Source: Leisingera daeponensis
GTDB taxonomy: Bacteria; Pseudomonadota; Alphaproteobacteria; Rhodobacterales; Rhodobacteraceae
Direction of reading: 5' to 3'
Length of the DNA stretch: 64,000 nucleotides
NCBI RefSeq assembly: GCF_019801465.1
Contig: NZ_JAHVJA010000001.1
Coordinates: 558,001 to 622,000 of the forward strand
Numbering within the stretch: position 1 is the stretch's first letter; every line of letters starts with the position of its first letter. The notes beneath the pieces were generated by a model that was given only the letters and a program-made list of their open reading frames with translations, ran no database searches and was not told the origin of the DNA. The translations under genes and the position numbers were made by a program. Positions 3,942 to 26,765 of this stretch are shown here, piece after piece.

Positions 3942-3948
3942 TCGAAGC

Positions 3949-3977: not shown

Positions 3978-4010
3978 TCGCCTTGAGAGTGTGCTTTCCT
4001 GAGCCGGAAA

Positions 4011-4226: not shown

Positions 4227-4734
4227 TGCTGCAGGCTCCCTGTCTATTGTTGGTAATTGCCTCAGCTCTTTTGAACCGCGGCTCAAGTTTTTTAATTATG
4301 GCGGCTTGATATCCTTGTTGAAGCCGTTTGTCACCGGTTCGTTTTCTTTCATGGACTATGCCGCGGGAATTTTAGCGGAGGCAGGAAACAGGGCTGGGGC
4401 GGTCAGGAACGAGGGGCGCGGAGAATCGCGCCTAAGGCGGCTGCACGTGCAAGCGAAAAACATAGTGCAAGTTCAGTGGAAACAGGGTGGCGTTTGCGGG
4501 GAAAAATCTCTAACTGGCGTCAATACCGGGAAAAACGCGTCCAATGAGGGTGCGTCAATAAATAGCACCCTTGACTTGAGGAGGGGGCGGTGGAACCCTT
4601 CTGCGCGTGCAAAATAATCCGCACGCAGCTTGTCTGGCAGCCTGCAACTGACAGCCGCGCTTCGGCTTCAGAGCTGTGTTCCCGGCGGTGCTGGCCAAGC
4701 TGCAAATCATAAGACAAGTGGGAGAGACTTGATC
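4227..4734 (+). promoter_or_regulatory. 508-bp intergenic region upstream of the TAXI operon with two inverted repeats
   Basis: No convincing gene. It must hold the divergent promoters of the small minus-strand gene and of the TAXI transporter operon. Two inverted repeats stand out: AGGGTGC-N11-GCACCCT (4547-4553 / 4565-4571) and GCGTGC-N10-GCACGC (4605-4610 / 4621-4626). Between them is a TTGACT (4571-4576) that could act as a -35 element, though no good -10 follows at 17 bases. The second repeat has the spacing of a dimeric repressor or LysR-type site. Short plus-strand frames here lack codon bias and binding sites and were not called. Confidence 0.4.
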
Positions 4735-5700
4735 ATGAAACACACCAAACTGGCTATCGGTGCATTGGTGGCAGCGTCCTTTTCGGCGCCCGCAGCATTC
4801 GCTCAGGAATACATCACCATCGGCACCGGCGGCGTGACCGGCGTGTATTATCCGACCGGCGGTGCCATCTGCCGTCTGGTGAACAAGGGCCGCAAGGAGC
4901 ACGGCTTCAAATGCGCCGTGGAATCCACTGGCGGCTCGGTCTACAACATCAACACCATCCGTGAAGGCGAACTGCAGTTCGGCGTGGCCCAGTCCGACTG
5001 GCAGTACCACGCCTACAACGGCTCCTCCAAGTTCGAGGAAGCAGGGCCGTTCGAGGGTCTGCGCGCCGTCTTCTCAGTCCACCCGGAACCTTTCACCGTT
5101 GTGGCACGTGCCGACTCCGGCATTTCCACCTTTGACGATCTCAAGGGTAAGCGCGTGAACATCGGCAACCCGGGTTCCGGCCAGCGCGGCACCATGGAGG
5201 TGCTGATGGAAGCCAAGGGCTGGGGCATGGAAGATTTCGCCCTGGCAACTGAGCTGAAGGCGGCAGAACAGTCCGCGGCACTGTGCGACAACCAGATTGA
5301 TGCGATGATCTACACCGTCGGCCACCCGTCGGGTTCCATCCAGGAAGCCACCACCGCCTGTGACTCAGTCCTGGTGACTGTGGACGGCGAAGCGGTGGAG
5401 AAGCTGGTTGCAGACAATTCCTTCTACCGCACCGCCACCATTCCGGGCGGCATGTACCGGGGTACCGATGAAGACGTGCAGACCTTTGGGGTAGGCGCCA
5501 CCTTCGTGACCTCGGCGGACGTTTCCGAAGACGCGGTTTATGCGGTTGTCAGCTCTGTCTTTGAAAACTTCGAGGCCTTCCAGAAGCTGCACCCGGCCTT
5601 CACCAACCTGAAACCGGAAGAGATGATCGCGGATGGCCTGTCGGCGCCTCTGCATCCGGGTGCAGAGAAATATTACAAGGAAAAGGGCTGGATCGAATAA
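4735..5700 (+). CDS. TAXI family TRAP transporter substrate-binding protein
   Basis: Periplasmic ligand receptor of a TRAP transporter, 321 residues. The start ATG 4735 follows GGGAGAG and gives a textbook signal peptide (basic MKHTK, hydrophobic core, cleavage after AFA at residue 23). The mature protein begins YITIGTGGVTGVYYPTGGA, the hallmark of the TAXI (TRAP-associated extracytoplasmic immunogenic, NMT1-like) family; one frame extends further upstream but without a signal sequence. Ligand is not predictable; characterised TAXI proteins bind small organic acids such as glutamate. The gene is followed by a strong hairpin and then by the fused permease, the usual arrangement giving excess binding protein over permease. 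Confidence 0.93.
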   Translation: MKHTKLAIGALVAASFSAPAAFAQEYITIGTGGVTGVYYPTGGAICRLVNKGRKEHGFKCAVESTGGSVYNINTIREGELQFGVAQSDWQYHAYNGSSKFEEAGPFEGLRAVFSVHPEPFTVVARADSGISTFDDLKGKRVNIGNPGSGQRGTMEVLMEAKGWGMEDFALATELKAAEQSAALCDNQIDAMIYTVGHPSGSIQEATTACDSVLVTVDGEAVEKLVADNSFYRTATIPGGMYRGTDEDVQTFGVGATFVTSADVSEDAVYAVVSSVFENFEAFQKLHPAFTNLKPEEMIADGLSAPLHPGAEKYYKEKGWIE

Positions 5701-5719
5701 TCCGCCAGACAATGAGGGG

Positions 5720-5744
5720 CGGGGCGCATCAGGCGCCCCGTTTT
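5720..5744 (+). terminator. Intercistronic hairpin between binding protein and permease
   Basis: Eight-base perfect stem (5720-5727 with 5733-5740, loop ATCAG) followed by TTTT. It sits between the TAXI binding protein stop and the permease start and probably terminates part of transcription or stabilises the 5' message, so that more binding protein than permease is made. Confidence 0.7.
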
Positions 5745-5814
5745 CGCCTGAGGCCAAGGGCCCGGGCATGACTATTCCGGCCCCGGGAAACGGCGGCCGC
5801 AGGGGAGATTATCC

Positions 5815-8424: not shown

Positions 8425-8852
8425 GCAAACCGGTTCTTTGCGCATTGGAGCTGAATGATGAAGCTCTGGACGAAAAGGTTCTGGCTCAGGCCGCCCGGCT
8501 GGCGGCCCTGGACGGCGCCCAGCTTGACGTGGTGAATGTTTTACCCGACTTCGGTGAAAGCTGGGTCTCCGGGTTCTTCGAGGAGCATCACCACGAAAAA
8601 GCCGTGAAGGATACGACGCAGCGGCTTACCGGGCTTTGCGCCAAGGTGCTCGGGGACGAACGCAACGCCAAGGTGCGCCATCTGGTGGCAACCGGCACTG
8701 CCTATCAGGAGATACTGAAGGTTGCCGAAACAACCGGTTGCGGTCTGATCGTGATAGGGGCGCATAAACCCGACCTCAAGGACTACCTGCTGGGCCCGAA
8801 CGCAGCCCGGGTCATCCGGCATTCCGACTGCTCGGTCTTTGTGGTTCGCTGA
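8421..8852 (+). CDS. Universal stress protein (UspA family) coupled to TRAP permease
   Basis: Nucleotide-binding alpha/beta protein, 143 residues, the size of a single Usp domain. The C-terminal ATP-binding signature is clear: LIVIGAHKPDLKDYLLGPNAARVIRHSDCSVFVVR, here shown as G-x2-(9 residues)-G-P-N-A spacing near residues 113-129. It starts inside the permease stop codon. The TRAP-linked Usp protein TeaD of Halomonas binds ATP and modulates uptake by its TRAP transporter; a similar role here is inference from context. The gene ends just before a bidirectional terminator. Confidence 0.9.
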   Translation: MSKPVLCALELNDEALDEKVLAQAARLAALDGAQLDVVNVLPDFGESWVSGFFEEHHHEKAVKDTTQRLTGLCAKVLGDERNAKVRHLVATGTAYQEILKVAETTGCGLIVIGAHKPDLKDYLLGPNAARVIRHSDCSVFVVR

Positions 8853-8859
8853 AACTGAC

Positions 8860-8884
8860 AAGGGCGCTTTCGGGCGCCCTTATT
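8860..8884. terminator. Bidirectional terminator between UspA and AttH-like gene
   Basis: Eight-base perfect stem (8860-8867 with 8874-8881) with A residues on the left and T residues on the right, so it can end transcription from both converging genes. The stop codon of the minus-strand gene lies in the right arm. Confidence 0.75.
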
Positions 8885-9929
8885 CATAGCCGGTCATCTC
8901 CAGGTAGCCTGTGCCGCTGTGGCTGCCGGTGACCGTGACCGGGCCTTCCCAATAGGAAAATGTGGTTCCCATCCAGCTTTGCGGGTTAAGGGCTTGAATC
9001 TCGATGGAAACGCCCTTGGATGGCAGGTTGGCACGCCAGCGTGTAGGGACCGTGCGGCCTGCCACATTGGTGGTTTCCAAAGGTGCTGCCTGAAACGCTC
9101 CCGCTTCCAGAGGCTCGGCTGGGCCTTCCGCAGGTATCCAGGTTCCCGATGTGAAATCGCCGCTGTCGCCGCGCAGCAAAAATCCCATCAGCTTGTCACC
9201 GCTGTCAAAGCTGAGAGAAAACCAGTCCCAGCCCTTCTGATCCGGCGCCAGGGGCTGCGACGACCATTCCCGGTCAAGCCAGCCGTGGCCGGAGACGTCA
9301 ACTGGCCCGTCCGGCAGCGTCAGAGTTCCAGTGACTTGGTAGTGCGGCTGGGAATAATAGTAGCTCGCCTGACCTTTGGCGGATTTTACCGAATATCCGT
9401 TGTCTCCGTGCAGCACAAGTGGGCCGCCCGAGGTTAATTCCAGGTCGTATGAAAAACGGCCGCCGTCAATGGATAGCTCTATGTTTTCAATGCTTTCCCT
9501 GTCTGAGTGGAACCTCCAGTCGTCGATCCAAGCAATAAAAGGATTGAGCCGGACGCCAGCCTGCCCGATCCCGCCACGGGCAATGCGTTCAGAAAAGACA
9601 TGCTGCTTTTTGGAGGTCACGGCAGCATGCGCCATCCAAATTTGCGGGCTTTGCCATCCGTCCGTGTCTCCGGGGGCCAGCGCAGAGCGGAAAAGCGTCC
9701 ACTGAATGCCGTAGGCCTTGCCATCCGGCCCCTCAAGATTGGCCGTCAAATACCACCATTCAATACGAAAATCAGGATGCGGGCCATGATCTCGAGGAAA
9801 TATCAGCTGCGTTCCGGGTTTCGGGATGGCGAAGCCTTCAGCATCCGAACCCAGCCCTGCGTAGCCCTGCGGCTGAGCAGCGGTTGTCCAGCCGGCCGCA
9901 ACGGCACAAAGCAAAAACCTAACGTTCAT
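8880..9929 (-). CDS. AttH / CrtC-like lipocalin-fold secreted protein of an ABC exporter
   Basis: Probable periplasmic or surface partner of the ABC system encoded upstream, 349 residues. The start is taken at ATG 9927-9929, preceded by AGGTG at 7 bases; a TTG two codons earlier is possible. A short signal peptide covers about residues 1-18. Family marks are RIEWWYLTANL near the N-terminus and HGWLDREWSSQPL in the second half, shared by AttH and the carotenoid 1,2-hydratase (CrtC) superfamily of tandem lipocalin domains. A carotenoid role is unlikely since no carotenoid genes are nearby; the gene order ATPase-permease-AttH matches AttEFGH-type systems. The 11-base overlap with the permease gene indicates translational coupling. 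Confidence 0.85.
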   Translation of the reverse strand: MNVRFLLCAVAAGWTTAAQPQGYAGLGSDAEGFAIPKPGTQLIFPRDHGPHPDFRIEWWYLTANLEGPDGKAYGIQWTLFRSALAPGDTDGWQSPQIWMAHAAVTSKKQHVFSERIARGGIGQAGVRLNPFIAWIDDWRFHSDRESIENIELSIDGGRFSYDLELTSGGPLVLHGDNGYSVKSAKGQASYYYSQPHYQVTGTLTLPDGPVDVSGHGWLDREWSSQPLAPDQKGWDWFSLSFDSGDKLMGFLLRGDSGDFTSGTWIPAEGPAEPLEAGAFQAAPLETTNVAGRTVPTRWRANLPSKGVSIEIQALNPQSWMGTTFSYWEGPVTVTGSHSGTGYLEMTGYE

Positions 9930-12336
9930 TTGCAAACACCTTTAACAGGTCCGCCGGGTCAATGCGGCTGAGACGCCGCGCCGGAAGGGCGGCGGCAATA
10001 ACTGCTGCCAAGAGCGCCAGCAGGAACAGCCGCAGCCAGTCGCCGGGAAAGAGGAACATAGGCAGCTTCCAGCCAAAGGCCTCCACATTGATCACAGACA
10101 GCAGCGCCCAGGCCAGAACCAGGCCCAGCGGCAGCGCAAGCAGCGCAGTGAAGGCTGCAAGAAGCAGGCTGCGCAGCAGTTCCGTGGCGGCCAGCTGGCG
10201 GCGGGTCAGGCCCATGGCCCAAACCGGCGCCAGCTGCGGCAGGCGCTGGGTCCACAAGGTTAGCAGGCTGGTCAGCAGCGCAAATCCGGCCACGCCGAGC
10301 GTCAGCAGGTTGAGAGCGGCGGTAATGACAAATGTTCTCTCGAATACAGCCAGGGAGCGGGCCTTGGCCGTGGCTTGGTCAGTAATGTTTTGCCTTGGTA
10401 TATCAATGTCCTGCCGGATTTTTCTAATCACCCCTGGAACCTCCTCAGGGGAAGTCCGCAGGCCAAACTGGCGGTTTGGTATGTCAGGTGCGCGGGCCAA
10501 AAGCGCCTGCATGGCAACCATCGCCTGGCCGCTGGGATTGCCGTAGTCGGAGTAGATCCCGGCGACCGGCAACCGCCATCCCGGTTCGAGTTCCACGAGA
10601 CTGCCCGGGGCCAGATCGTACCGGCGCGCAAGCTGTTCATTGATCAGCACGCCGCCGCCGCTGGAAATCCGGTCCCAGACATCCGGAAGCGCGTCCAGCA
10701 ACGGCCAGTTCTCCCGGTAGGCATCGTTGTCTTCATAGCCATAGATCCGCAGGGAAGTCCCCTTGAACCGGGTATCATAGTAGCGGCGCGGCAGAACCGT
10801 AATGCCCTGCTTGTCCGCCCATTGCTCCAGTTCGGCGCCCTGGGCGTCACTGATCGCGGTGACGTAGATCTCGGCAAACAGCCGCTGGTCCAGCCAGCCG
10901 GTAAAGGTCTGGCGGAAGCTGGACACCATGGTGCCGACGCCGACATTCGCCGCAAGCGCCAGCAAAAGCGCCATAAGGGCAAGCGACATACCTGGCAGCT
11001 GTGCTTTCGTATCCGCCCAAAGCCACTCAGCAAAAGCGCCCTCGGCCAGCCGCCCTCCCAGCGACAGCCCGGCGGAAATCAAAAGTGGAAGCATCAGCGC
11101 GGCTCCGAGCATGAGCGCGCCAAGGAATGCAAACCCAGCAATAAGACCTTGAAAAATTTGAAGTACAAGCACTCCGCCGGCGATTATGACAAAACCGGTC
11201 AAGGCTCCGGCCAAATGCGATCGTGTGGCTTGCTGGCCCCGGGCGCGGGTTGCCGGAGCGGCCAGCAACGGCATCCGGCAGAGCGAATAGAAAGCCTTCG
11301 CGCCGGCTAGGAAGGCTCCGACCAAAGTCATGGCCAGACCGGACAGCACCCAGCTTGGGCGCAGGGACAAGCTGCCATCCACTGGTACCCCATAAAGGCC
11401 GGCCAAGGTGGCACTGACCCCCGGTAGCAGCGCCGCCGCAACCGCATAGCCCCCGGCGAGCCCCACAGCACTGGAGATGAGTGCAATCACAGCCATCTCA
11501 GCAGCAAAAAGAGCTGTCAGAAGCCGCATCGGCACCCCAAGGCTGCGCAAGGTCCTGATCATCCCGCGCCGCTGCTCAAGGCTGAGGGCGATGGTACCTT
11601 GAACGATGAACAGGCCGACGGCAAAGGAAAGAAGGCCGAAAGCGGTCAGGTTCAGATGGAAGCTATCCGTCAGCCGCGCTGCGTCGGACCCGTCGGCTCT
11701 TGCAGGGACGAAGGTCAGTTCCGGCGCCAGTTCCTTAAGCGGTGCCAGACCCGGCCGCTGATCCGGCAGCACCAGCAGATAACTCAGGCTGTCGGGCCGC
11801 CGCAGCAGGCGGCTGGCAAGGCTGAGATCCGCCAACGCCACGCCGCGTGGCAAGGCAGCCGTGGGCGTCACTGGGTGAACGGTTTGCGCCGCCTGCAATT
11901 GCACCGCCGTTTCCGGATGTGCAAAAAGCCTGCCAGGCGGCAGCAGCGCCTCCAAAGGACGCGCGGTGCCGTGCTCCGCGGCCGCCTGCAGTGCCGCTGC
12001 GCGGGGGTGCTGGAGTAGGTCCACCCCCATTAAATCAAACGTTTGCAGTTCGAACCTGACCACCCCCGTCAGCACCGGCGCCAGTTTCCAACCGGCGCGC
12101 CGCAGATCCGCATACCGGCCAAGCGGGATGGTTCCGGATTCGGGGTTAAGACGTGCGGAGTCCGCTGTGCCTAGTTGTTCTGCTGCCTGAGCATAACTAG
12201 CGCGCGCCTCTGCATTGATGGCCTGAACCGCTGACCACAATCCGGCTGCCAGTGCCAGTCCGGCAATCAGGGTCGCCAGTTGCAGCGGGTGGCGCCGCCA
12301 ATGCGACAGGATCGCCTGCAATGCTGCGGGGGTCAT
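9919..12336 (-). CDS. ABC transporter permease, FtsX family (AttF/AttG-like, fused)
   Basis: Inner-membrane permease of 805 residues with an N-terminal helix (about 16-35), a large extracytoplasmic domain, a first FtsX block of three helices (about 225-345), several central helices, a second extracytoplasmic domain and a C-terminal FtsX block (about 680-800). The duplicated FtsX arrangement is typical of exporters of the MacB/LolCE and Att type, here as a single polypeptide rather than separate AttF and AttG subunits. The start codon overlaps the end of the ATPase gene by 4 bases. The mechanism is likely mechanotransmission to, or release of, a lipid-associated or secreted product; the substrate is unknown. 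Confidence 0.9.
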   Translation of the reverse strand: MTPAALQAILSHWRRHPLQLATLIAGLALAAGLWSAVQAINAEARASYAQAAEQLGTADSARLNPESGTIPLGRYADLRRAGWKLAPVLTGVVRFELQTFDLMGVDLLQHPRAAALQAAAEHGTARPLEALLPPGRLFAHPETAVQLQAAQTVHPVTPTAALPRGVALADLSLASRLLRRPDSLSYLLVLPDQRPGLAPLKELAPELTFVPARADGSDAARLTDSFHLNLTAFGLLSFAVGLFIVQGTIALSLEQRRGMIRTLRSLGVPMRLLTALFAAEMAVIALISSAVGLAGGYAVAAALLPGVSATLAGLYGVPVDGSLSLRPSWVLSGLAMTLVGAFLAGAKAFYSLCRMPLLAAPATRARGQQATRSHLAGALTGFVIIAGGVLVLQIFQGLIAGFAFLGALMLGAALMLPLLISAGLSLGGRLAEGAFAEWLWADTKAQLPGMSLALMALLLALAANVGVGTMVSSFRQTFTGWLDQRLFAEIYVTAISDAQGAELEQWADKQGITVLPRRYYDTRFKGTSLRIYGYEDNDAYRENWPLLDALPDVWDRISSGGGVLINEQLARRYDLAPGSLVELEPGWRLPVAGIYSDYGNPSGQAMVAMQALLARAPDIPNRQFGLRTSPEEVPGVIRKIRQDIDIPRQNITDQATAKARSLAVFERTFVITAALNLLTLGVAGFALLTSLLTLWTQRLPQLAPVWAMGLTRRQLAATELLRSLLLAAFTALLALPLGLVLAWALLSVINVEAFGWKLPMFLFPGDWLRLFLLALLAAVIAAALPARRLSRIDPADLLKVFANER

Positions 12337-12989
12337 GAAACTGTACCGTGCCGCAGATGCAGACGCCGGTCCAGCATTTGCGCAATGGCGTTTGAGTGGG
12401 TTACCAGAAACAGCGCCGTACCGCTTTCCCGGACGAGTTCCAGCATGAGCTCCATCACTGCCGTGCTGGCGGCTTCATCCAGGTTGCCGGTTGGTTCATC
12501 CGCCAGCAAAAGTTTGGGCCGCACGGCCAGAGCGCGTGCAATGGCGGCGCGCTGCTGCTGGCCGCCGGACAGCTGCTCTGGATAACGGCCCAACAGGCCG
12601 GACAAGCCGAGGCGGTCCGCCAGCCTTTGCCCCCAAGCCGCATCCCATGTGCCCCCGAGCCTGGCATGCAGCGCAATATTCTTCTCAATGTTAAGTGAAG
12701 GTATCAGGTTAAATTGCTGAAAAACCAGTGAAACGTGACGACGTCGCAGGGCGGCTTTCTGTCCGTCCCCAAGCTCCGACAGGCGGACACCATCAATCCC
12801 GATCTCTCCGCTGTCGAAATGATCCAGTGCCGCCGCCAGGTGCAGCAAGGTGCTCTTGCCGGAGCCGCTATCGCCTGTCAATGCCAGGCTGGTGCCTGCT
12901 GACAGGTCCAGCGAGACCCCGCGCAGCACAGCTGTCTCCACTGTTTGGCCCGGGTACGACTTGGTGACATCGCGGATCGTCAGAACCAT
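12333..12989 (-). CDS. ABC transporter ATP-binding protein (LolD/AttE-like)
   Basis: Cytoplasmic ATPase of 218 residues that powers the adjacent FtsX permease. All motifs are present: Walker A GDSGSGKST at residues 39-47, Q-loop in LVFQQFNLIP, signature LSGGQQQRAAIARAL near 139, Walker B LLLADEPTGNLD near 160 and the switch histidine in LVTHSN. It is the first gene of the three-gene minus-strand operon ATPase-permease-AttH. Its promoter must lie in the 195-bp divergent region shared with the ion-channel gene (12990-13184), where no clear elements were identified. Confidence 0.93.
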   Translation of the reverse strand: MVLTIRDVTKSYPGQTVETAVLRGVSLDLSAGTSLALTGDSGSGKSTLLHLAAALDHFDSGEIGIDGVRLSELGDGQKAALRRRHVSLVFQQFNLIPSLNIEKNIALHARLGGTWDAAWGQRLADRLGLSGLLGRYPEQLSGGQQQRAAIARALAVRPKLLLADEPTGNLDEAASTAVMELMLELVRESGTALFLVTHSNAIAQMLDRRLHLRHGTVS

Positions 12990-13184
12990 TTACGGCAACC
13001 TTCCGGCCTTTGGTCTTGATGTGCTGCAAGGTAGTCAATACCGATGGCTGCAGGATGTCCAGCCGGACACATCCAGGACGCTGGTTCATTGGCGCAGCGG
13101 ATTGCTGAAATCCCAGCCAGCTGGCATGATTTCCGAGGTGAAGCCGGGGGCGCCTAGGGTCGAAAAAAGAACAGGAGGTCCGGC

Positions 13185-13634
13185 ATGACGCTGTGGAACC
13201 AGCTGCTGTGGGGATCCATAAATCTCAGTGCTTGCCTGATCCTGGAGATCACGATCCTCGTCTGGTGTGCGTCCGTCTTGAACAGGCTGTCAGAACGGTT
13301 CGGGAAACCCTACCGACGCTGGCAGCTGGCCCTGATGCTGGTGGTGGCCATCTTCATTATCCTTGGCAGCCATACGGCGCAGGTCTGGATCTGGTCCGCG
13401 GCATTTGTCCTGGTCGGGGCGATCGCGGACTGGAATACTTCGGTCTATTTTTCGCTGGCAACCTATACCACACTGGGCTACGGCGACGTCGTGCTAGGGC
13501 CCGCCTTGAGGATTTTCGCTGCCTTTGCAGCGGTAACGGGACTGTTCGGATTTGGAATCAGCACTGCCTTCCTTGTCAGCGCCATGAGCCGCCTTTTTTC
13601 ATTGGACGGTCAGCACTCTGACAGCAGAAATTAA
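13185..13634 (+). CDS. Two-TM potassium channel family protein (Ion_trans_2)
   Basis: Small inner-membrane cation channel subunit, 149 residues. There are hydrophobic segments near residues 8-27, 45-82 and 110-135 and a pore loop with the selectivity filter TLGYGD at residues 96-101, which is the K+-channel signature. No cytoplasmic RCK/TrkA-N domain is present, so gating regulation is not evident. The start ATG 13185 follows AGGAGG at good spacing. The stop overlaps the converging cardiolipin synthase stop by four bases. Confidence 0.85.
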   Translation: MTLWNQLLWGSINLSACLILEITILVWCASVLNRLSERFGKPYRRWQLALMLVVAIFIILGSHTAQVWIWSAAFVLVGAIADWNTSVYFSLATYTTLGYGDVVLGPALRIFAAFAAVTGLFGFGISTAFLVSAMSRLFSLDGQHSDSRN

Positions 13635-15046
13635 AGCACCGGAGCCAGCAGGCGGGCGGCCGGGGCCAACAGGCGGACCCTGAGTTTCTGCTGGACCAGC
13701 CCTTCCGTCAGGTCCCGGGCGTTTTGAAAATCCTTGGCGAGCATTTCAGCAATTTCGGCCGCCGGGCGCTCATCAAAAAACAAGGCCATGGTTTCAAAAT
13801 TCAGCCGGAAAGAGCGGTTGTCCAAATTCGCTGTTCCAATCCCTGCGATTGTGTCGTCCGCTACAAAGCATTTCTGGTGCATAAAGCCGCCCTGATAGCG
13901 CAGGATGCGTACCCCGGCGTCGCGCAGTTCATCAAAAAATGCAAAGCTGGCGAGCCACGGCAGGTAGTGGTCGACCGTCTCCGGCAGCAGCAGCCTGACG
14001 TCGACGCCGCGCAGCCCGGCGTGTTTCAATGCCGCAAAAACATCCTGGTCAGGAACAAAGTAGGGGGACGCCAGCCAAATCCTGTGTTGGGCGGCGGTGA
14101 TTGCAGAAAAGAAAAGCATCGAGCCGTTGCCGGTTGTGTCGCCGGGGCCGGTCGAGGCAATCAGGGCAGGCAGGTCTTGCGGCGAGGGTTCAGGCTCCCA
14201 GTTCAGAAGGTCCAGGACCGGTTCTTGGGTGCGCCAGTGCCAGTCCTCGGCAAAAGACAGCTGCAGCTGCTGGACAATTGGCCCGTTCAGGCGGACATGG
14301 GTATCTCTCCAGGGGCCGAAATGAGGATTCAGCCCCATGTACTCGTCCCCGACGTTGAGGCCACCTGTGAAGCCAGTGCGGCCATCGATGACCACGGTTT
14401 TCCTGTGGTTCCGGAAATTGATCCGCAAACGGTGCCAGGGGCCGCGCTGCACAGCCGGGTCAATCATGTTGACACCCGCTTCCTCAAGCGTCTGCTTGAA
14501 ATCCCGGGACAGCTTGCGGCTGCCTACACTGTCGGTCACGAACCAAACCGTGACGCCGCGCTGTGCCGCGGCGATCAGCCGGGAATGGAACTGCCTACCC
14601 AGGCCGTCATCCCGCAGAATGTAATACTGGACTAGAATATAATCTTGCGCATTTTCAATGGCTTCAAATATTGAATTAAAAGTTTCCTCTCCGTTGACAA
14701 GAAGCTTCATGCCGTTGCCGCGGCATACTTTCAGGCCCGCGATCATTTCAAACGGGGCTGTGTTGATCCCCTTGGCCGCGGGCGCCTCCGTTTGAGAACT
14801 TGTATAGTTGCGTTTGGCAATGACCGCCTGCTCCGCCGCCCGGCGCGCTTTCCAGTAGCCTTTGAACCGGTGGTGGCCAAAGATCAGGTAGGCGGGCAGG
14901 GCAAGGAGAGGGGCCGCAAGCAGAAATACCACCCATCCTATAGCGCCTTGCGGCGTTCGTGCGGTCCGGGCGGCACTCAGCGCCGCCAGGCCGGCAGCCG
15001 TCCAGGTTGCAGCCAGGGCGGCCGTGCTGAAAACAATCCAGAACAT
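13631..15046 (-). CDS. cls: Cardiolipin synthase (phospholipase D superfamily)
   Basis: Makes cardiolipin from two phosphatidylglycerols at the inner membrane; 471 residues, normal for ClsA-type enzymes. Two N-terminal membrane helices (about 1-25 and 37-57) precede two PLD domains, each with an HKD motif: HRKTVVIDGRTGFTGG near residue 214 and HQKCFVADDTIAGIGTANLD near residue 392. Intact His-Lys-Asp residues in both indicate an active enzyme. Stands alone; upstream lies the divergent YihY gene about 100 bases away. Confidence 0.93.
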   Translation of the reverse strand: MFWIVFSTAALAATWTAAGLAALSAARTARTPQGAIGWVVFLLAAPLLALPAYLIFGHHRFKGYWKARRAAEQAVIAKRNYTSSQTEAPAAKGINTAPFEMIAGLKVCRGNGMKLLVNGEETFNSIFEAIENAQDYILVQYYILRDDGLGRQFHSRLIAAAQRGVTVWFVTDSVGSRKLSRDFKQTLEEAGVNMIDPAVQRGPWHRLRINFRNHRKTVVIDGRTGFTGGLNVGDEYMGLNPHFGPWRDTHVRLNGPIVQQLQLSFAEDWHWRTQEPVLDLLNWEPEPSPQDLPALIASTGPGDTTGNGSMLFFSAITAAQHRIWLASPYFVPDQDVFAALKHAGLRGVDVRLLLPETVDHYLPWLASFAFFDELRDAGVRILRYQGGFMHQKCFVADDTIAGIGTANLDNRSFRLNFETMALFFDERPAAEIAEMLAKDFQNARDLTEGLVQQKLRVRLLAPAARLLAPVL

Positions 15047-19282: not shown

Positions 19283-20209
19283 ATGGCTTTGCTGAACTTT
19301 AAAAAACGTGACTCTGGTGCGGCACAGACCGTCAATCCTCAGGTTGAAGCCTTTCTGCAGGGCTATTCGATCGAAGTCATGCCGCGCACCGCAGAAAAGG
19401 TCGAGGACTTCCGCGACCTGCTCCCGGCCGGCACCCGCGTCTACATCGCGCACATCGAAGGCACCCCGATCGAGGACATGGTTGCCACCGCCAAACGCCT
19501 GAACGACGAAGGCTTCCCGGTGATGCCGCACTTCCCGGCGCGTATCATCAAGGACGAGGCAACCCTGGCGGACTGGATTGCCCGCTACCAGGGGGAGGCC
19601 GACGTCAAACAGGCGCTGATGCTGGCCGGCGGCGTTGCCAAGCCGCACGGCGAATTCCACAGCTCGATGCAGCTGCTGGAAACAGGCCTGTTCGACAAGG
19701 CTGGCTTCACCAACCTGCACGTTGCCGGCCACCCGGAAGGCAACAAGGACATCGACCCGGACGGCTCTTCAAAGAACGTGTCCGAGGCACTGCAGTGGAA
19801 ACAGAAATTTTCCGAGCGCACCGACGCCAGCATGGCGCTGGCCACCCAGTTCGCATTTGAGGCCAAGCCGATCATCGCCTGGGCGAACGGCCTGAAGGAC
19901 GCGGGCGTGGATCTGCCGATCCATATCGGCATTGCCGGCCCGGCCAAGCTGCAGACCCTGATCAAATTCGCAATTGCTTGCGGTGTCGGCCCGTCGCTGA
20001 AAGTCCTGCAGAAGCGCGCGATGGATGTGTCCAAGCTGCTGCTGCCCTACGAACCGACCGACGTTGTCGCCGAACTGGCCGCATACAAGGCGGAAAATCC
20101 GGACTTCAACATCACCAACGTCCATTTCTTCCCGCTGGGCGGCATCAAGACCAATGCCACCTGGGCCATCAACAACGGCGGCGCCTCGGCAAAGCCGGTC
20201 AACTCCTAA
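19283..20209 (+). CDS. metF: Methylenetetrahydrofolate reductase (MetF-like)
   Basis: Reduces 5,10-methylene-THF to 5-methyl-THF, the methyl donor for methionine synthesis; 308 residues in a single TIM-barrel domain. Features include a first strand with IEVMPRTAEKVEDF, the PHFPARII segment, and VAGHPEGN with the conserved HPE-type sequence of the family. The sequence is distant from E. coli MetF and belongs to the form that in Roseobacter-type genomes sits beside a separate methyltetrahydrofolate methyltransferase. The start ATG 19283 follows GGGAGG; an upstream ATG at 19247 lies inside the previous gene and has no site. Flavin dependence is family knowledge, not visible here. Confidence 0.88.
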   Translation: MALLNFKKRDSGAAQTVNPQVEAFLQGYSIEVMPRTAEKVEDFRDLLPAGTRVYIAHIEGTPIEDMVATAKRLNDEGFPVMPHFPARIIKDEATLADWIARYQGEADVKQALMLAGGVAKPHGEFHSSMQLLETGLFDKAGFTNLHVAGHPEGNKDIDPDGSSKNVSEALQWKQKFSERTDASMALATQFAFEAKPIIAWANGLKDAGVDLPIHIGIAGPAKLQTLIKFAIACGVGPSLKVLQKRAMDVSKLLLPYEPTDVVAELAAYKAENPDFNITNVHFFPLGGIKTNATWAINNGGASAKPVNS

Positions 20210-20226
20210 GACCCTAAGGATCACCA

Positions 20227-21288
20227 ATGACCCGTACAGTCGTAGAATCAAAAACCAAAACCGCGATCCTGGGCTTTGACCAGCCGTTCTGCGTTATCGG
20301 CGAGCGCATCAACCCGACCGGCCGCAAGAAACTGGCGGCCGAGCTGGAAGCCGGCGATTTCACCACCGTCGAGAAAGATGCCCTGGCGCAGGTCATGGCC
20401 GGCGCAAACATCCTCGATATCAACGCGGGCGTGGTCTACAACTCCAACCCGAACCCGAACGAGACCGAGCCGCCGCTGATGACCAAGATCGTCGAGCTGG
20501 TGCAGGGGCTGACCGATGTGCCGCTGTGCATCGACTCCTCGGTGCCCGGCGCACTGGAAGCCGGCCTGCAGGCAGCCGAAGGCCGTCCGCTGCTGAACTC
20601 CGTCACCGGCGAAGAAGAGCGCCTGGAGCACGTGCTGCCGCTGGTCAAGAAGTACAACGTTCCGGTTGTGGCGATCTCCAACGACGACACCGGCATCTCG
20701 GAAGATCCCGATGTCCGTTTCGCCGTGGCCAAGAAGATCGTCGAGCGCGCAGCTGATTTCGGCATTCCGGCGCATGACATCGTGGTTGACCCGCTGGTGA
20801 TGCCAATCGGCGCAATGGCAACTGCCGGCCAGCAAGTGTTTGCCCTGGTGCGCCGCCTGCGCGAAGAACTGGGCGTGAACACCACCTGCGGCGCGTCCAA
20901 CATCTCCTTCGGGCTGCCGAACCGCCACGGCATCAACAATGCCTTCCTGCCGATGGCCATGGGCGCGGGCATGACCTCTGCGATCATGAACCCGGTGGCG
21001 CTGCCGGTGACCCAGAAAGCCATTGCCGAGAAAAAGGCCATGGTAGAAGCCGCCGGCATCATCCTGCCGGACGGCATGGACGACGAAGCCTTCGTGACCA
21101 TGTTCGGCCTGGGTTCCACCCAACCGCGCGCCGGCAAGGAAATGGAAGCCATCCGCGCCGCCAACCTGCTGACCAACAACGACCCGCACGGCGGCGACTG
21201 GATCAAGTTCAACAAGCCGCCGGCTGCCGAGGGCGAAGAGACCCGCGGCCGTGGCGGCCGGGCAGGCGGACGCCGCCGCCGCGCCTGA
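20227..21288 (+). CDS. Methyltetrahydrofolate:corrinoid methyltransferase (pterin-binding domain protein)
   Basis: Transfers the methyl group of 5-methyl-THF to a corrinoid protein; 353 residues with a DHPS-like TIM barrel. Visible motifs are GERINPTGRKKL near the N-terminus, ANILDINAGV, CIDSSVPGALEAGL and TCGASNISFGLPNRHGINNAF, all pterin-barrel features shared with the central domain of MetH. The C-terminus ends in an Arg/Gly-rich tail. Phaeobacter-type bacteria are reported to have methionine synthase split into separate polypeptides; this gene plausibly supplies the folate module, with homocysteine/B12 modules encoded elsewhere. It lies 17 bp after metF and is closed by a terminator. Confidence 0.9.
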   Translation: MTRTVVESKTKTAILGFDQPFCVIGERINPTGRKKLAAELEAGDFTTVEKDALAQVMAGANILDINAGVVYNSNPNPNETEPPLMTKIVELVQGLTDVPLCIDSSVPGALEAGLQAAEGRPLLNSVTGEEERLEHVLPLVKKYNVPVVAISNDDTGISEDPDVRFAVAKKIVERAADFGIPAHDIVVDPLVMPIGAMATAGQQVFALVRRLREELGVNTTCGASNISFGLPNRHGINNAFLPMAMGAGMTSAIMNPVALPVTQKAIAEKKAMVEAAGIILPDGMDDEAFVTMFGLGSTQPRAGKEMEAIRAANLLTNNDPHGGDWIKFNKPPAAEGEETRGRGGRAGGRRRRA

Positions 21289-21312
21289 TCCAGACGGAAA
21301 AATGCAGACAGG

Positions 21313-21340
21313 GGCCGGGCAGCAATGTCCGGCCTTTTTT
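21313..21340 (+). terminator. Rho-independent terminator of one-carbon operon
   Basis: GGCCGG stem (21313-21318 / 21329-21334), 10-base loop, followed by six T residues. It lies 25 bases after the methyltransferase stop codon. Confidence 0.85.
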
Positions 21341-21468
21341 GTTCAGGTCGTTTGCAGAATTCGGGAGGCTACGGAGTGCTGCGGAATGCGGGCTTATCTT
21401 CGAACCGGAGTATTTGAACGTCCCGGCGCTGCGCTAAGCGCATGATTTTAAGGCGGCCTGCGGGGGGA

Positions 21469-21532
21469 AGTGGCGGAGAGAAAGGGATTTGAACCCTGGG
21501 TGGGCTTGCACCCACAACGGATTTCGAGACCG
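21469..21532 (-). pseudogene. tRNA-Ser 3' fragment (left attachment repeat)
   Basis: Copy of the acceptor, T-arm, variable arm and anticodon loop of tRNA-Ser, differing from the intact gene at 21482, 21490 and 21521. Homology stops at 21532 inside the anticodon arm, so the D-arm and 5' acceptor strand are missing and no functional tRNA can form. A 30-base stretch (21491-21520) is identical to 24945-24974 and is the likely crossover core. Confidence 0.8.
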
Positions 21533-21993
21533 TTTTCGGCTCAAGACGCTTGCTTGCGAGGCCTTATTTTATTGGCTTCTTAGCGAAGCAATACGCGGCT
21601 CCGGCGGCTTGAACGGGGCAGGGCGGCATAGTCGGACGGCATAGCTCCAGTGCTTCTGCCATCGTTCAAGGAAGTCCGGAGCGCCTGGTTGAAAACGGCA
21701 AAAAGTCTGAGGTTCGTTTGACCTCCTACGAGGCAGGTCAATTAGGCTTCGAAACTGGGCCGACAGCGGCATGTCAGATCGGGCAGGTGCATGCAGGGAC
21801 CTCTGGCTCGTCGGCCTGGTCCTGAGCCGCCATTCACGAACTGTTCGGCAAGGGGCCGCTGGTCTCAAGAGTATTACTCATTGCCGGATTGCCGTTTCAA
21901 GATCGGTACTGAAACTTACATTCGTAAGTTGTTTTGGCGATGAGAAACGAATAGCCTTGGCAAGACCTCCAATGCGTATCGTGAAATTTTCCA
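21533..21993. other. Left end of the element, non-coding
   Basis: 461 bp without a supported gene. It contains two GGCATAG copies 14 bp apart (21625-21631 and 21639-21645); the first extends to an 11-mer, GGCATAGTCGG, that recurs at 24803-24813 near the other end of the element. These may be integrase or accessory-factor binding sites. The promoter of the cargo gene must lie in its right part. A 99-codon minus-strand frame (21569-21868) has no binding site or recognisable content and was not called. Confidence 0.4.
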
Positions 21994-23604
21994 ATGAATA
22001 CAGCCTTCTCCGAAGCCTTCACCAAAATATCCACACGCATACCGCACGCTGTGCGCGATTTCGAAATCCTGCGTGTGACAGCCCAGCTTGAAGGTGAAGA
22101 CTACGCTGCCTCAGCTGAGGCTTCGCGGAAAGAAGCTCTGAAATGGGCAAAGAAGCGGGCGGGGCGAGCGCTACCTAAGGCCGCGTGGGAATTGCAGGAC
22201 TTCGACCTCCTGGTGGGGGGGCGCAGCAGTACGGCGGTGCGTATCGAGAATGACGCGCTCGACCTCTGGGCGCTGCGGGCGGAAGACCCCGATAAGGACA
22301 TAGCGGGGCGTATCTGGTCCACCGAAATCGTTATCGGCGGCGAAGTTGGTAGCCGTCCCCATGTCAGCCTTCGTTTGATCGTCAGCACGACCGAACCGGA
22401 TTTCGCTGTCGAACCCCATGTACCTGGGCCTGTCTTACAAATGATCGAGACGCCAGGACTAATCAGGGGTGCTCGACGGCTCACCTCGAAGCCGGTCACG
22501 ATCCAGACAGAAAACGATGCGGAAGACCTTTGCGACCATCTGGAAGATCCGGAGCGCCGTTTGCCGATCTTCGTCGCGGCCTTGCCGGATGGTGGCGGCA
22601 AACTCCAGTTCAATGCTGCGGTTTTGGCTAAGGCAGTCGCGGGCCTTGCCCGTATTGTACTGGTGCCCGCCGAGTTGACTTGGGTATTGACCGAGCGCTT
22701 CGGGAAATACCGCTCGGTGTTCAATGGTGGTGTGCGGGCCTATCTGCGTGGCTTCTCCGCGACCGATGACCCATTTCGGCACCGCCTATTTCTGGAAGCG
22801 GATTTGCGCAAAGTTGGTGGTGGGGCCACCTGTGTTCGAAGTCTACGTGCGCTGGCCGCCGAGGTCAGTATTTCCGAAACGCGGCTGGGCAAAGATGTGC
22901 TTGATTTCGCGTCGGTCCGTACTGCGAGCAGAAAACTTCGGAAGACTGATCTTTCGAACCAAGCCGCGCCAGACGACGAAGTTCTGAAGACTGCGGAAGA
23001 GTTGGTTGAAAGCTTGGAAAAGCAGATCGAAGAAAAAGACAAGGAGATCGACGGCTACATCGCGGAAGTTGAAGCTGTAGAGGATCGCGCTCAAGCTGCC
23101 GAGCAGGAAAACCGGTCTTTGTTGTTCCGCGTCAGACAGTTGCAGGCCGCGTTGGCCGAGGGAGGAGAGGTCCCAACAGAGGAGCCACCTTTACCGCAAG
23201 TCTGGTCAGAGTTCACCGATTGGCTCGACCAGACATATCCCGACAAAGTCTTGTTGACTCCTGCTGCGCGGAGAATGGCACGTTCCCCCGAGTTCGAAGA
23301 TGTGACACTGGTGGCACGAGCAATCGCATGGCTGGCAACCGTTCAACATGACAGGCGTATCAATGGCGGTGGTAGCCTCCGGGATGTACCGGTCGAGAAC
23401 GGTATTCTGAATTCGCCGTGTGGTGGGGATACCTATTCGACTGACTGGAAAGGTAGGCGCTATGAGGTTGATTGGCATGTTAAGAATGGCGGTAACGTAC
23501 GCGATCCCAAAAGGTGCCTACGAATTTACTACTTCTGGGAGCCTGAAACCCAACAAACCGTCATTGACCATCTACCCGCACATCGCCGGACAAGTGCAAC
23601 GTAA
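21994..23604 (+). CDS. Unrecognised 536-aa protein, sole cargo of the element
   Basis: I do not recognise this protein. It is soluble, without signal or membrane segments. Residues about 1-290 form a long alpha/beta region with a conserved-looking stretch around 225-275 (PAELTWVLTERFGKYRSVFN, then YLRGF and DPFRHRLF). Residues about 332-388 are a strongly charged coiled coil. The last ~120 residues form a small separate domain ending in CLRIYYFWEPETQQTVIDHL, which by pattern could be a beta-rich RelE/ParE-like or similar cap; that is a weak guess. The ATG at 21994 has no clear ribosome binding site. Being the only cargo of a tRNA-integrated element in a lower-GC setting suggests a selfish or anti-phage role, but nothing in the sequence proves it. 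Confidence 0.75.
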   Translation: MNTAFSEAFTKISTRIPHAVRDFEILRVTAQLEGEDYAASAEASRKEALKWAKKRAGRALPKAAWELQDFDLLVGGRSSTAVRIENDALDLWALRAEDPDKDIAGRIWSTEIVIGGEVGSRPHVSLRLIVSTTEPDFAVEPHVPGPVLQMIETPGLIRGARRLTSKPVTIQTENDAEDLCDHLEDPERRLPIFVAALPDGGGKLQFNAAVLAKAVAGLARIVLVPAELTWVLTERFGKYRSVFNGGVRAYLRGFSATDDPFRHRLFLEADLRKVGGGATCVRSLRALAAEVSISETRLGKDVLDFASVRTASRKLRKTDLSNQAAPDDEVLKTAEELVESLEKQIEEKDKEIDGYIAEVEAVEDRAQAAEQENRSLLFRVRQLQAALAEGGEVPTEEPPLPQVWSEFTDWLDQTYPDKVLLTPAARRMARSPEFEDVTLVARAIAWLATVQHDRRINGGGSLRDVPVENGILNSPCGGDTYSTDWKGRRYEVDWHVKNGGNVRDPKRCLRIYYFWEPETQQTVIDHLPAHRRTSAT

Positions 23605-23649
23605 GCGGTGCCGGGACCATGGATTTCCCACTGGCATCCCGGCACTTAC
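23601..23649 (+). terminator. Hairpin overlapping the stop codon of the cargo gene
   Basis: TGCCGGGA (23609-23616) pairs with TCCCGGCA (23637-23644) and is flanked by GTAAG / CTTAC, giving a 13-bp interrupted stem with a 20-base loop. No T tract follows. It may terminate transcription or mark a recombination-related structure. Confidence 0.45.
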
Positions 23650-23846
23650 GAGTGAACGTGATCTTCAAGGCCCGGTAGCTCGGGTCCAGTCCCTACGGGT
23701 TATCAATTCTCTCTTCTTCAGACAAAAAAGGTGCCATCGTAGACGACCCCGACCGAAGGGCAGGGCGGCCGCGGAAAAAGGCGTCCTGGTGACCACTTCG
23801 AACAGTCCGTCACGACCTTTATGACAGCATAGATGATGCGGCTGGT

Positions 23847-24698
23847 ATGCATGGTTGGAGCGCCTCGACCTGCAAGCGCTACCGCACCAGCCTCCTTCAG
23901 ATCGGCCGGACGTTGGCGGATATCTTTGCTGAGCGGGATGAAGAAATTGAGGAAGTCGCCGCATGGGAAATCGGCTTGGCCGAGGTCACCGAGTTCGTCG
24001 AGCTGCGCAAGGATGCCGGTGTGTCCGTGGCGACCATCAACCGTGATTTGACAGCGTTCAACCATCTGATGTCCCACATCAAGAACAAGGGTTGGATCGA
24101 AATCAATCCGGTTCAGCTTTTCGAGAAGCAGGGCATGCGCGAAAAGCTTCCTCCGATTGTCCTGCCAACCGAACAGGCGATTACCCGGCTCTCGGAGCGC
24201 GCGCCAGGGACGCTCACGTTCTTGCCGGAGTTCTTGCATGAGACCGGGGGCCGGATCACCGAAACCACGATGATCAAGTGGAGCGACCTGGTTGGCATGG
24301 ACCAGCCACTCGAAGGTCATGTGACACTTACATTGGAAAACACAAAAGGCGGAAAAGTCCGCACGATCGCTCTGCGCCAGCAAGCCATCGACATCCTGTT
24401 GAAGATTCCGCGTTCGAACCGGTCTCCCTATGTCTTCTGGAACAAGACCGACGAAGGATACTACCGGACCGCGGCCAACCTCTTCTGGGACTACGCGCAG
24501 GAAGTCGACTTCGGAGCCCGAATGCACGACCTGCGGCACAAGTTCGCGATCGAGCGGCTGAAGGAAGGCTGGTCGGTCTATCGCGTGCAGCGATACATTG
24601 GACACGGGTCAGTGAAGACCACCGAGCGCTACTATTTCCGCTATCTCACCCAGGAGCAGCAGGAGGTCGCCAACTCCGACGGCAACGTCGGCCTCTGA
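23847..24698 (+). CDS. Tyrosine recombinase / integrase, N-terminal part interrupted
   Basis: Site-specific recombinase expected to integrate and excise the element at tRNA-Ser. The 283-residue frame holds the SAM-like core-binding domain (about 5-95) and a complete catalytic domain with R136 (ETGGRITE), K170 (GGKVR), H227 and R230 (HDLRH), H253 (GHGS) and Y262. The same frame is also open upstream from 23679 to a TGA at 23790-23792, encoding a plausible N-terminal arm (DDPDRRAGRPRKK) and continuing after the stop with RTVRHDLYDSIDDAAG. This suggests that a longer integrase has acquired a nonsense mutation; translation could restart at ATG 23847, which has no good binding site. Activity is therefore uncertain. 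Confidence 0.75.
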   Translation: MHGWSASTCKRYRTSLLQIGRTLADIFAERDEEIEEVAAWEIGLAEVTEFVELRKDAGVSVATINRDLTAFNHLMSHIKNKGWIEINPVQLFEKQGMREKLPPIVLPTEQAITRLSERAPGTLTFLPEFLHETGGRITETTMIKWSDLVGMDQPLEGHVTLTLENTKGGKVRTIALRQQAIDILLKIPRSNRSPYVFWNKTDEGYYRTAANLFWDYAQEVDFGARMHDLRHKFAIERLKEGWSVYRVQRYIGHGSVKTTERYYFRYLTQEQQEVANSDGNVGL

Positions 24699-24802
24699 TA
24701 CTGAAAGCCATCAACGGCTACGAGCCATGCCCAGCCCGGCGGGGCTTCGTCATTTTGGGACATCCGAATGATCGGCTCCGACGGCATGGGCGAGGGCATC
24801 CT

Positions 24803-24849
24803 GGCATAGTCGGCACAGCTGACAGGGCAAAAAGTCGTCAAACTATGCC
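24803..24849. repeat. Inverted GGCATAGT / ACTATGCC repeat at right end of element
   Basis: GGCATAGT (24803-24810) and its complement (24842-24849) flank 31 bases in the non-coding 226 bp between integrase and tRNA-Ser. The left arm is part of an 11-mer also found at 21625-21635. Candidate recombination arm sites. Confidence 0.4.
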
Positions 24850-24924
24850 GAGATTGGCCAATAGCCTCGAGACCAGCCCATCCGGGCGGGGGCAGATGAA
24901 TATCTATCGATATCAGGGGAATAG

Positions 24925-25014
24925 TGGCGGAGAGACAGGGATTCGAACCCTGGGTGGGCTTGCACCCACAACGGTTTTCGAGACCGCCCCGTTCGACCAC
25001 TCCGGCACCTCTCC
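24925..25014 (-). tRNA. tRNA-Ser(CGA)
   Basis: 90 bases including encoded CCA. The 7-bp acceptor stem (GGAGAGG with TCTCTCC), anticodon stem-loop with loop CTCGAAA (anticodon CGA, codon UCG), a long variable arm (GTGGG / CCCAC) typical of class II tRNAs, and T-arm with TTCGAAT are all present. It is the attachment site of the mobile element, whose right end supplies the 3' part. Confidence 0.95.
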
Positions 25015-25133
25015 GCGGGGGGTGAGGCGCGGTTTAATGTTGATTCCGGACCGGCGCAAGGGGCGAATTGCAGCTTTGGCAAAAAAAGCCGGATTTCCGT
25101 TGCCCGACAAAGGTTTTTGCCTAGATTTGCACT

Positions 25134-25985
25134 ATGCAGATGATCCTCCCAATCGCCGCACTCGTGATGCGTTCTCTGGCTTTGCTCTGCCTGGCCTGCT
25201 GGAGCATGTCCCAACCCGCCGCGGCGGCGGACCGTGAGCGGGTGGTGGCTTTCCTGGAAGTGACCGGCTTCGATGTTGCGCTCGACAGTATTGCCCTGTC
25301 TGCCTCCAGCGCACCGGATATGCTGGGTGTTGATGCGGGCGCCTTTGGCAGCCAATGGACGCGGCTGGCGGAAGACGTCTTTGACACGGACCGGATGCGA
25401 AGCCTTGCTCTGGATATCCTGGAAAACACGCTGGATGACGAGGCGCTGGAGCACGCCGCCGGTTTCTATGCCAGTGATCTTGGGAAACGGCTGGTGCGCG
25501 CCGAAAACGCTTCGCATCTGGTTGAGGATGATGAGGTGAAGCAACTGGCGGGCAACCGCATCATTTCCGATCTGGTCAAGGCGGGAAGCAAGCGTGTCGC
25601 GATGTATCAGCGGATGGGAAATGCCATCGACGCGGCGGGAACCGGGGTCAGGGCCCTGCAGCAGATCCAGTTCCGTTTTCTCATGGCGGCCTCCGCCGCA
25701 GGCGTAATCGAGATGGACCTGGACGCGGACGAACTGCGCGCGCTGATGAAGGAGCAGGAGGGGGAGCTGCGCCTCAGCCTGCAGGCCTCCAGTCTTGCAG
25801 CCTCCGCCTACACCTATCAGGAATTCTCGGACGCGGAGGTGCAGGCCTACGTCGAGGCCCTGGAGGAGGAGGCGATGCAGCGGGTCTATGAGCTTTTGAA
25901 TGCGGTGCAATATGAAATCACCGCCAACAGGTTCGAAGAACTGGCGCACCGCATGGCGGAGCTGACGCCGGGGCAGGATATTTAA
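25134..25985 (+). CDS. DUF2059 domain secreted protein
   Basis: Exported helical protein of 283 residues. An N-terminal signal peptide ends around residue 32 (SQPAAAADRE). The remainder is almost entirely alpha-helical and contains a DUF2059-type region with LEHAAGFYASDLGKRLVRAE near residues 102-121, where such proteins share the 'F-Y-x-S-x-x-G' pattern. Function of the family is unknown. The annotated ATG is the first of three close candidates (25134, 25140, 25167), and none has a strong ribosome binding site. The neighbours (tRNA-Ser and rplU) give no functional clue. Confidence 0.8.
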   Translation: MQMILPIAALVMRSLALLCLACWSMSQPAAAADRERVVAFLEVTGFDVALDSIALSASSAPDMLGVDAGAFGSQWTRLAEDVFDTDRMRSLALDILENTLDDEALEHAAGFYASDLGKRLVRAENASHLVEDDEVKQLAGNRIISDLVKAGSKRVAMYQRMGNAIDAAGTGVRALQQIQFRFLMAASAAGVIEMDLDADELRALMKEQEGELRLSLQASSLAASAYTYQEFSDAEVQAYVEALEEEAMQRVYELLNAVQYEITANRFEELAHRMAELTPGQDI

Positions 25986-26036
25986 GTCTCCGGCGGCCCT
26001 TCCGGTGGCCGGCCGGGGAAAGCCTGTGGAAAACGG

Positions 26037-26065
26037 TTGACACACCGCTTGTTCCGAACCATAAG
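26037..26065 (+). promoter_or_regulatory. Sigma-70-type promoter of rplU-rpmA
   Basis: TTGACA (26037-26042), 17-base spacer, CATAAG (26060-26065). It lies about 130 bp upstream of rplU, leaving a leader of that length in which L21 autoregulation could act. Confidence 0.6.
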
Positions 26066-26201
26066 CCCGCATCCCGGCCCGGAATCCGTGCGCCGGGGTT
26101 TATTTGTCATACGCCCATCCAAGGGCGCGCTGTTCGAGGCGGCATCTGCCGAAACGCCCGCAAGGGGGCCGTAGGACGCGGTTAGAAAAGGAAAGACGCA
26201 T

Positions 26202-26765
26202 ATGTTTGCGGTCCTCAAGACTGGCGGCAAGCAGTACAAGGTTCAGGCGGGCGACGTGCTCCGCGTTGAGAAACTTGCTGCAGATGCCGGCGACACTATC
26301 CAATTCGACGAAGTTCTGATGCTGGGCGGCGACGCTCCGGTTGTCGGTGCTCCGCTGGTTGACGGCGCTGCCGTCAAGGCAGAAGTGATCGAGCAGATCA
26401 AAGGCGAGAAGCTGATCCACTTCGTGAAGCGCCGCCGGAAGCACTCCTCCAAGCGCACCAAAGGCCACCGTCAGAAACTGACCCTGGTCCGGATCACCGA
26501 GATTCTGGCTTCGGGCGCAACCAAAGCCGCTCCGAAAGCTGCTGCCAAAGCCAAAGCCGCTCCGGCTGCTGAAGCCGCTGCAGGTTCGGACGACCTGACC
26601 CAGCTGACCGGCGTCGGCCCCGCAGCTGCCAAGAAACTGGCGGAAGCAGGCCTCACCAGCTTTGCCCAGATCGCAGCCTTGTCCGAAGACGACATTGCTG
26701 GTATCGAGGCAATCAAAGTGAAGCCCGAGTGGGTTGAGCAGGCCAAAGAACTGGCTAAAGGCTAA
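26202..26765 (+). CDS. rplU: 50S ribosomal protein L21 with C-terminal helix-hairpin-helix extension
   Basis: Primary 23S rRNA-binding protein of the large subunit. The first ~103 residues are canonical L21 ([19 protein letters not shown] at the start, [18 protein letters not shown] with the family RNA-binding signature). Bacterial L21 normally ends there; this one has 187 residues, adding an Ala/Lys-rich linker (about 105-130) and a helix-hairpin-helix-like domain ([20 protein letters not shown]) to the end. Similar extensions are known in alphaproteobacterial L21. The gene is 11 bp upstream of rpmA, the usual operon. Confidence 0.97.

Follow-up and report, generated by a model that had tools for sequence, protein, structure and literature searches.

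In this work we analyzed a 64-kb stretch of Leisingera daeponensis DNA (contig NZ_JAHVJA010000001.1, positions 558,001 to 622,000; hereafter the window) that carries a small island at tRNA-Ser(CGA). The intact tRNA gene, which is the integration target, lies on the minus strand at 24925-25014, where it was called by ARAGORN and gave the sole Rfam match in 20000-26500 at gathering thresholds. A partial copy of the tRNA 3' part is found at 21469-21532 (minus strand; the distal attachment site) and agrees at 61 of 64 positions with 24923-24986 (minus strand), the proximal attachment site within the intact tRNA. The two copies differ by three substitutions over these 64 bases (over a longer stretch of 71 nt the identity is 92%), have the same orientation, and are 3454 bp apart; the distal copy was not called as a tRNA by ARAGORN. 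These results confirm the original prediction, made from the window alone, of a tRNA-Ser direct repeat bounding 3454 bp, the intact tRNA being on the side of the integrase. The repeats enclose two substantial genes, both on the plus strand: a 536-aa gene at 21994-23604 and a 283-aa gene at 23847-24698. The product of the first matches the profile of HEC-07, a candidate anti-phage family (PADLOC-DB 2.0.0, PDLC04161), over residues 1-536 (E 6.1e-186, 617.6 bits), while Pfam, NCBIfam, and PHROGs gave weak matches, mostly on a coiled coil. The second encodes a tyrosine recombinase (PF00589, 7e-17) that lacks approximately 80 N-terminal residues. The segment had been described as one integrase and one unrecognised protein; the number of genes stands, the formerly unrecognised protein is now assigned to HEC-07, and the integrase is incomplete. 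The G+C content of the segment is 56.8%, vs. 61.1% and 62.1% in the flanks.

The site was compared among 21 genomes of the genus, i.e., the window's own and 20 congeners (genomes carry G codes and loci L codes). Both flanks are present in all 20 congeners and the element is absent from the tRNA-Ser(CGA) site in every one; the HEC-07 gene was not found anywhere in these 20 genomes. The site is empty in 11 of them (L012, L014, L015, L016, L018-L024): the aligned methyltransferase stretch stops about 120-150 bp short of the tRNA, the left flank and distal copy of the window align with it, and the distal copy joined to the remaining tRNA aligns with the empty sites. Other inserts occupy the site in seven congeners (G296, G298, G299, G301, G302, G313, and G238), among which G299 alone has an integrase of the window type. 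G309 has about 0.8 kb at the site (L013). In G295, a 213-bp stretch beside the tRNA (L048:1092-1303) is 85% identical to the right arm of the window element (24703-24915) and contains no integrase; it is the scar of a near relative of the window element. The anticipated pattern, an empty site in some relatives and different inserts in others, is therefore observed, and the contrary case of the same 3.4 kb in all relatives is contradicted by its absence from the site in 20 of 20 congeners. The repeats, the empty sites, and the absence from the genus sample together bear out integration in tRNA-Ser(CGA). The tRNA-Ser(CGA) genes of G296 (L041:18181-18270), G299 (L042:17932-18021), and G295 (L048:993-1082) have a different variable arm (nine differences), which possibly comes from an integrated element.

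With the full-length G299 integrase (365 aa) as the query against 394 genomes of the bacterial family (E<=1e-25), this integrase family was detected in eight genomes, the window's own and seven others. Adding G299, which came from the 21 genus genomes, and a second, shortened copy in G013, there are nine other copies in total. Eight of the nine point to tRNA-Ser(CGA), and the second G013 copy points to a partial copy of it. The distance between integrase and tRNA is 222-245 bp in eight of the other copies, about 265 bp in G392, and 226 bp in the window. Compared over the C-terminal 282 residues, the window integrase is 74-75% identical to those of G096, G342, and G074, and 60-63% identical to those of G299, G073, G013, and G089. 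Where intact, the other integrases of the family have a length of 359-365 aa, and homology in the window begins near residue 70 of the G299 integrase, at about 23800, past an in-frame TGA (23790-23792, plus strand) upstream of the open reading frame. No match to residues before 67 was found at E<0.2 in 21533-23900 of the window with seven N-terminal queries. A frameshift or a sequencing error at the start of the integrase was considered and rejected, because no N-terminal similarity above chance was present upstream in any frame. A 128-aa helix-turn-helix (HTH; Xis/AlpA-like) protein adjoins the G299 integrase and has counterparts in all seven of the others searched (partial in G074); its search against the window element gave no match. 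Of the other copies, the G074 integrase has an internal stop, the G392 integrase is split over two frames, and one of the G013 copies is shortened. Among 142 positions that do not vary in the other seven integrases, 11 are altered in the window copy; the corresponding number for the others is 0-7. This excess of changes fits relaxed constraint, to which a long branch alone could contribute.

Island size was measured only for G299 and G073, in which both ends were located. The G299 island (1659892-1682956) is 23.0 kb and holds a reverse transcriptase of the DRT UG20 type (E 4e-205), and the G073 island (2148164-2168218) is 20.0 kb and holds MTase_II, Vsr, MzaB-like, and SNF2-helicase proteins; as matches of single proteins, these do not prove whole systems. 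Matches to HsdM, HsdS, and HsdR are found near the integrase of G342, and a ThsB TIR-like match near that of G074; the far ends of these two islands were not located. Thus, of the five relatives scanned (G299, G073, G342, G074, and G013), all but G013 have defence-type genes next to the integrase. In G089, G096, and G392 the contig begins close upstream of the integrase, with the cargo out of view. The second G013 copy (L166:9678-10367) is located 48 kb away from the first and has a separate partial tRNA site; the two copies probably represent tandem islands. G299 also carries two large adjacent genes (L042:11152-14522), the first integrase-like (PF00589 below cut-off); both have a counterpart in G013 (L165:15046-17771), whereas in G073 (L163:5835-7769) and G342 (L168:6080-8059) only the first is represented, by weak counterparts.

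The arms of the element carry shared motifs. In the left arm (21625-21644, plus strand) candidate arm-type integrase sites are GGCATAGTCGG at 21625-21635 and GGCATAG at 21638-21644, and in the right arm (24803-24850, plus strand) a conserved block consists of GGCATAGTCGG, an A-tract, and CGTCAAACTATGCCG. Each arm has one copy of GGCATAGTCGG, and there is no third copy in the 64 kb (mean expected by chance, 0.04); GGCATAG is less telling alone, with 12 occurrences in the window vs. 5.2 expected. In the block that the family shares between integrase and tRNA, GGCATAG is followed by an A-rich stretch and by a palindrome resembling CATAGTATG. All 10 aligned elements or scars, that of G295 included, have GGCATAG there, and 8 of the 10 have the full GGCATAGTCGG. 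These shared motifs are probably arm-type sites of the integrase. The attachment repeat ends in the anticodon arm of tRNA-Ser(CGA). A promoter scan found no sigma-70-like site, and terminator-like sites (11 vs. 3.9 in shuffles) were not used in the interpretation.

HEC stands for Hma-embedded candidate, a class found by guilt-by-embedding, and passages of the source report name HEC-06 with antiviral activity (PMC12988326). Our literature search found no paper on the HEC-07 family, the sole paper under that name being unrelated. HEC-07 matches are present in 7 of 295 genomes of the bacterial family including the window's own, two of them weak and partial. Pairwise dN/dS (ratio of nonsynonymous to synonymous substitution rates) against the three nearest relatives (85-86% identical) is 0.06-0.10 at dS 0.8-1.4. 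We then took HEC-07-related loci from a genome-contig scan, keeping the best 80 of 89 with up to 8 kb on each side. A Fic-domain gene comes directly after HEC-07 in four loci (L093, L095, L099, and L123), of which L095 and L099 also have HsdS directly before HEC-07; HEC-07 and Fic may form a pair adjoining type I restriction-modification (R-M) genes. Type I R-M specificity models match 6 of 71 neighbour proteins of HEC-07 in other genomes; the association with defence genes is thus a feature of the relatives and is not seen in the window itself. Among the best 80 loci, the window-type integrase, the only type searched for, gave weak matches in L096, L097, L105, L107, and L134 only, and a tRNA is present at 16. 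The 3' part of the tRNA recurs exactly in L073 (17 nt, tRNA-Asn) and L107 (45 nt, tRNA-Pro); L091 has a 13-nt match (E 0.011), and the rest are at chance level. In L107 about 10.4 kb (3333-13735) lies between tRNA-Pro and the exact 45-nt repeat, with HEC-07 and a distant integrase-like match inside. In L091, L106, and L144, 103-172 bp separate the end of HEC-07 from a tRNA-Ser gene (measured to the tRNA 3' end); the fetched DNA has no window-type integrase, and of the three only L091 has the short (13 nt) tRNA repeat. In L073 (8001-11137) and L074 (8001-11146), a SLFN_AlbA_2 (Schlafen) gene follows HEC-07, possibly a two-gene version.

The AlphaFold model of HEC-07 has a predicted local distance difference test score (pLDDT) of 86.4 and a predicted template modeling score (pTM) of 0.63, with a long helix at residues 327-389 that is probably a coiled coil. 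The C-terminal domain (residues 398-536; 23185-23601, plus strand), modeled separately at pLDDT 92.8, is predicted to be RelE-like: in Foldseek against PDB, ranks 1-14 are all RelE, HigB, YoeB, or ParE, with best E 0.058 and probability <=0.72. A sequence profile against PDB returned 24 sequences (E<=1), of which most are coiled-coil proteins and none is a RelE toxin, and a BFVD search was uninformative. Invariant residues in 69 HEC-07 sequences include H495, K497, R507, C508, R510, Y512, Y513, and P528. RelE-type RNases use basic residues and a tyrosine. HEC-07 may combine an N-terminal sensor region with the long coiled coil and, at the C-terminus, an RNase resembling RelE; infection would switch on the RNase and translation would stop (abortive infection). 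This mechanism of an infection-activated RNase, built on a predicted fold, is put forward tentatively.

We conclude that the segment is likely a reduced, probably non-self-mobile member of a group of Rhodobacterales islands that use a dedicated tyrosine recombinase to enter tRNA-Ser(CGA). It has the attributes of a tRNA-integrated tyrosine-recombinase island, i.e., a bounding tRNA repeat, empty sites in relatives, and an integrase family tied to one tRNA. The complete integrase with an adjoining HTH gene that relatives have, and that a self-mobile island would need, is lacking, since about 80 N-terminal residues and the HTH gene are absent. Judging from the repeats, an integrase of this family would have recombined within tRNA-Ser(CGA) and restored the tRNA. 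Comparison with the relatives suggests that at least one deletion in the DNA separating the cargo gene from the integrase core then removed the HTH gene and the integrase N-terminus; such deletions would have fixed the island in place, and HEC-07 may have been kept by selection for protection of the host against phages. The original prediction had offered a satellite mobilised in trans or a compact carrier of defence-type cargo. The defence-type cargo is upheld by HEC-07 and by four of the five relatives. A purpose-built compact element or satellite is not, as the other near-full-length integrases of the family are 359-365 aa and accompanied by an HTH gene, and the two islands with both ends located measure 20 and 23 kb; with the integrase N-terminus and the HTH gene both missing from the window copy, its small size is better explained by deletion.

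Several observations weigh against this interpretation. No relative was found with both a window-type integrase and HEC-07, and a larger ancestral island is for this reason only inferred. In G013 one of seven scanned proteins matched PADLOC (DrmD model) and by eye this protein is transposition helper-like; with this single doubtful match, not all relatives are clearly defence islands. The catalytic domain of the window integrase has an uninterrupted reading frame and may still be active. The HEC-07 gene has a third-position G+C of 59.5%, vs. 76.7% in the integrase gene and 82.7% and 75.3% in two flanking genes. By composition the HEC-07 gene stands out as foreign, in favour of the interpretation, and the integrase gene, with a value between those of the flanking genes, does not. 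As for HEC-07 itself, the RelE resemblance of the modeled domain is under ordinary significance (no match at E<=0.001), and the whole model gave weak Foldseek matches of mixed fold with thioredoxin first.

Both arms survive and rescue in trans is therefore possible, which raises the alternative of a cis-mobilizable minimal element, with its arms and attachment sites kept and excised by the integrase of an incoming full-length relative. GGCATAGTCGG in both arms, the arm block shared with the family, and a distal site still matching at 61 of 64 positions would be expected of such an element. We nevertheless regard it as rather unlikely: the window's own genome has no close integrase (two other matches are 33-34% identical), the distal site has three substitutions whereas that of G299 is identical to its own tRNA over 62 bases, and the short arrangement is found in none of the seven other integrase-bearing family genomes (three cut by contig ends). 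That the short integrase suffices for an autonomous two-gene mobile element is highly improbable; the open 283-aa frame with its tyrosine recombinase match would allow it, but the length of the intact relatives, their HTH gene, and the excess changes at invariant positions argue otherwise.

A phage satellite using helper capsids would account for the small size, the integrase, the tRNA site, and the defence cargo. Phage satellites (PICI, phage-inducible chromosomal islands, and P4-like) have helper-exploitation or packaging genes; the window element has only two genes, none of them for helper exploitation, packaging, capsid, or replication. A pattern scan of viral contigs, based on the HEC-07 alignment, found no HEC-07 relative among 60 stretches, and the integrase relatives adjoin R-M, DRT, or TIR-type genes, which leaves a satellite with the slightest of chances. 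HEC-07 could also serve the host in a way other than defence or be a selfish toxin-like gene, given that the family is only a candidate and that in L049 and L050 the gene stands alone between genes that are core by eye. We think this unlikely in view of the HsdS/Fic gene orders in L095, L099, L093, and L123, the specificity-subunit neighbours, and the PADLOC assignment. Returning to the reduced island, we tentatively propose that HEC-07 is a one-protein abortive-infection system and that such genes outlive decaying islands, with tRNA-Ser(CGA) recording arrivals, shrinkage, and loss. The stages recorded at this tRNA would then be 23 kb, 20 kb, 3.4 kb, a 0.2-kb scar, and an empty site. Such a progression at a single tRNA, with a whole island at one end, a scar at the other, and a remnant with one gene in the middle, helps explain why some defence genes stand alone in genomes, and the proposal gives a testable idea of how HEC-07 could act.

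Among known systems, the window element resembles cis-mobilizable elements (CIMEs), in which att sites are present and recombination genes are defective; CIMEs are mobilised in trans by a related integrase, which for the window element is only a possibility. The C-terminal domain of HEC-07 may be like the RelE/HigB/ParE superfamily in its predicted fold and in its invariant basic residues and tyrosine, and it differs in that the fold scores are weak, the domain is part of a 536-aa protein, and the element has no separate antitoxin gene. The protein agrees with HEC-07 of PADLOC-DB 2.0.0 in its full-length profile match and differs in its setting, a remnant that is bounded by tRNA repeats and has lost part of the integrase. 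A literature search on islands at tRNA-Ser in this bacterial group listed nothing on the window element; tRNA hot spots in Sinorhizobium (PMC11476347) and four further reports (PMC9252829, PMC8565338, PMC10855318, and PMC12255303) serve here, through the portions consulted, as background only. GInts, too, are islands in which cargo accompanies tyrosine recombinases and a small helix-loop-helix (HLH)-type protein; the main text of their report does not contain the word tRNA (PMC5385486). Their defining feature is a ginABCD operon in which three integrases are encoded (PMC5385486); the window element, with one truncated recombinase, is not a GInt. The integrase-only defence islands of E. coli have an integrase and defence genes and no other known mobility genes; in the sections consulted, the authors suggest unknown transposons or satellites, and their survey demanded at least 10 genes per island (PMC10121019). 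The window element shares with those islands, as they are described in these sections, the combination of an integrase and defence-type cargo, and differs from them in its size of 3.4 kb and its truncated integrase.

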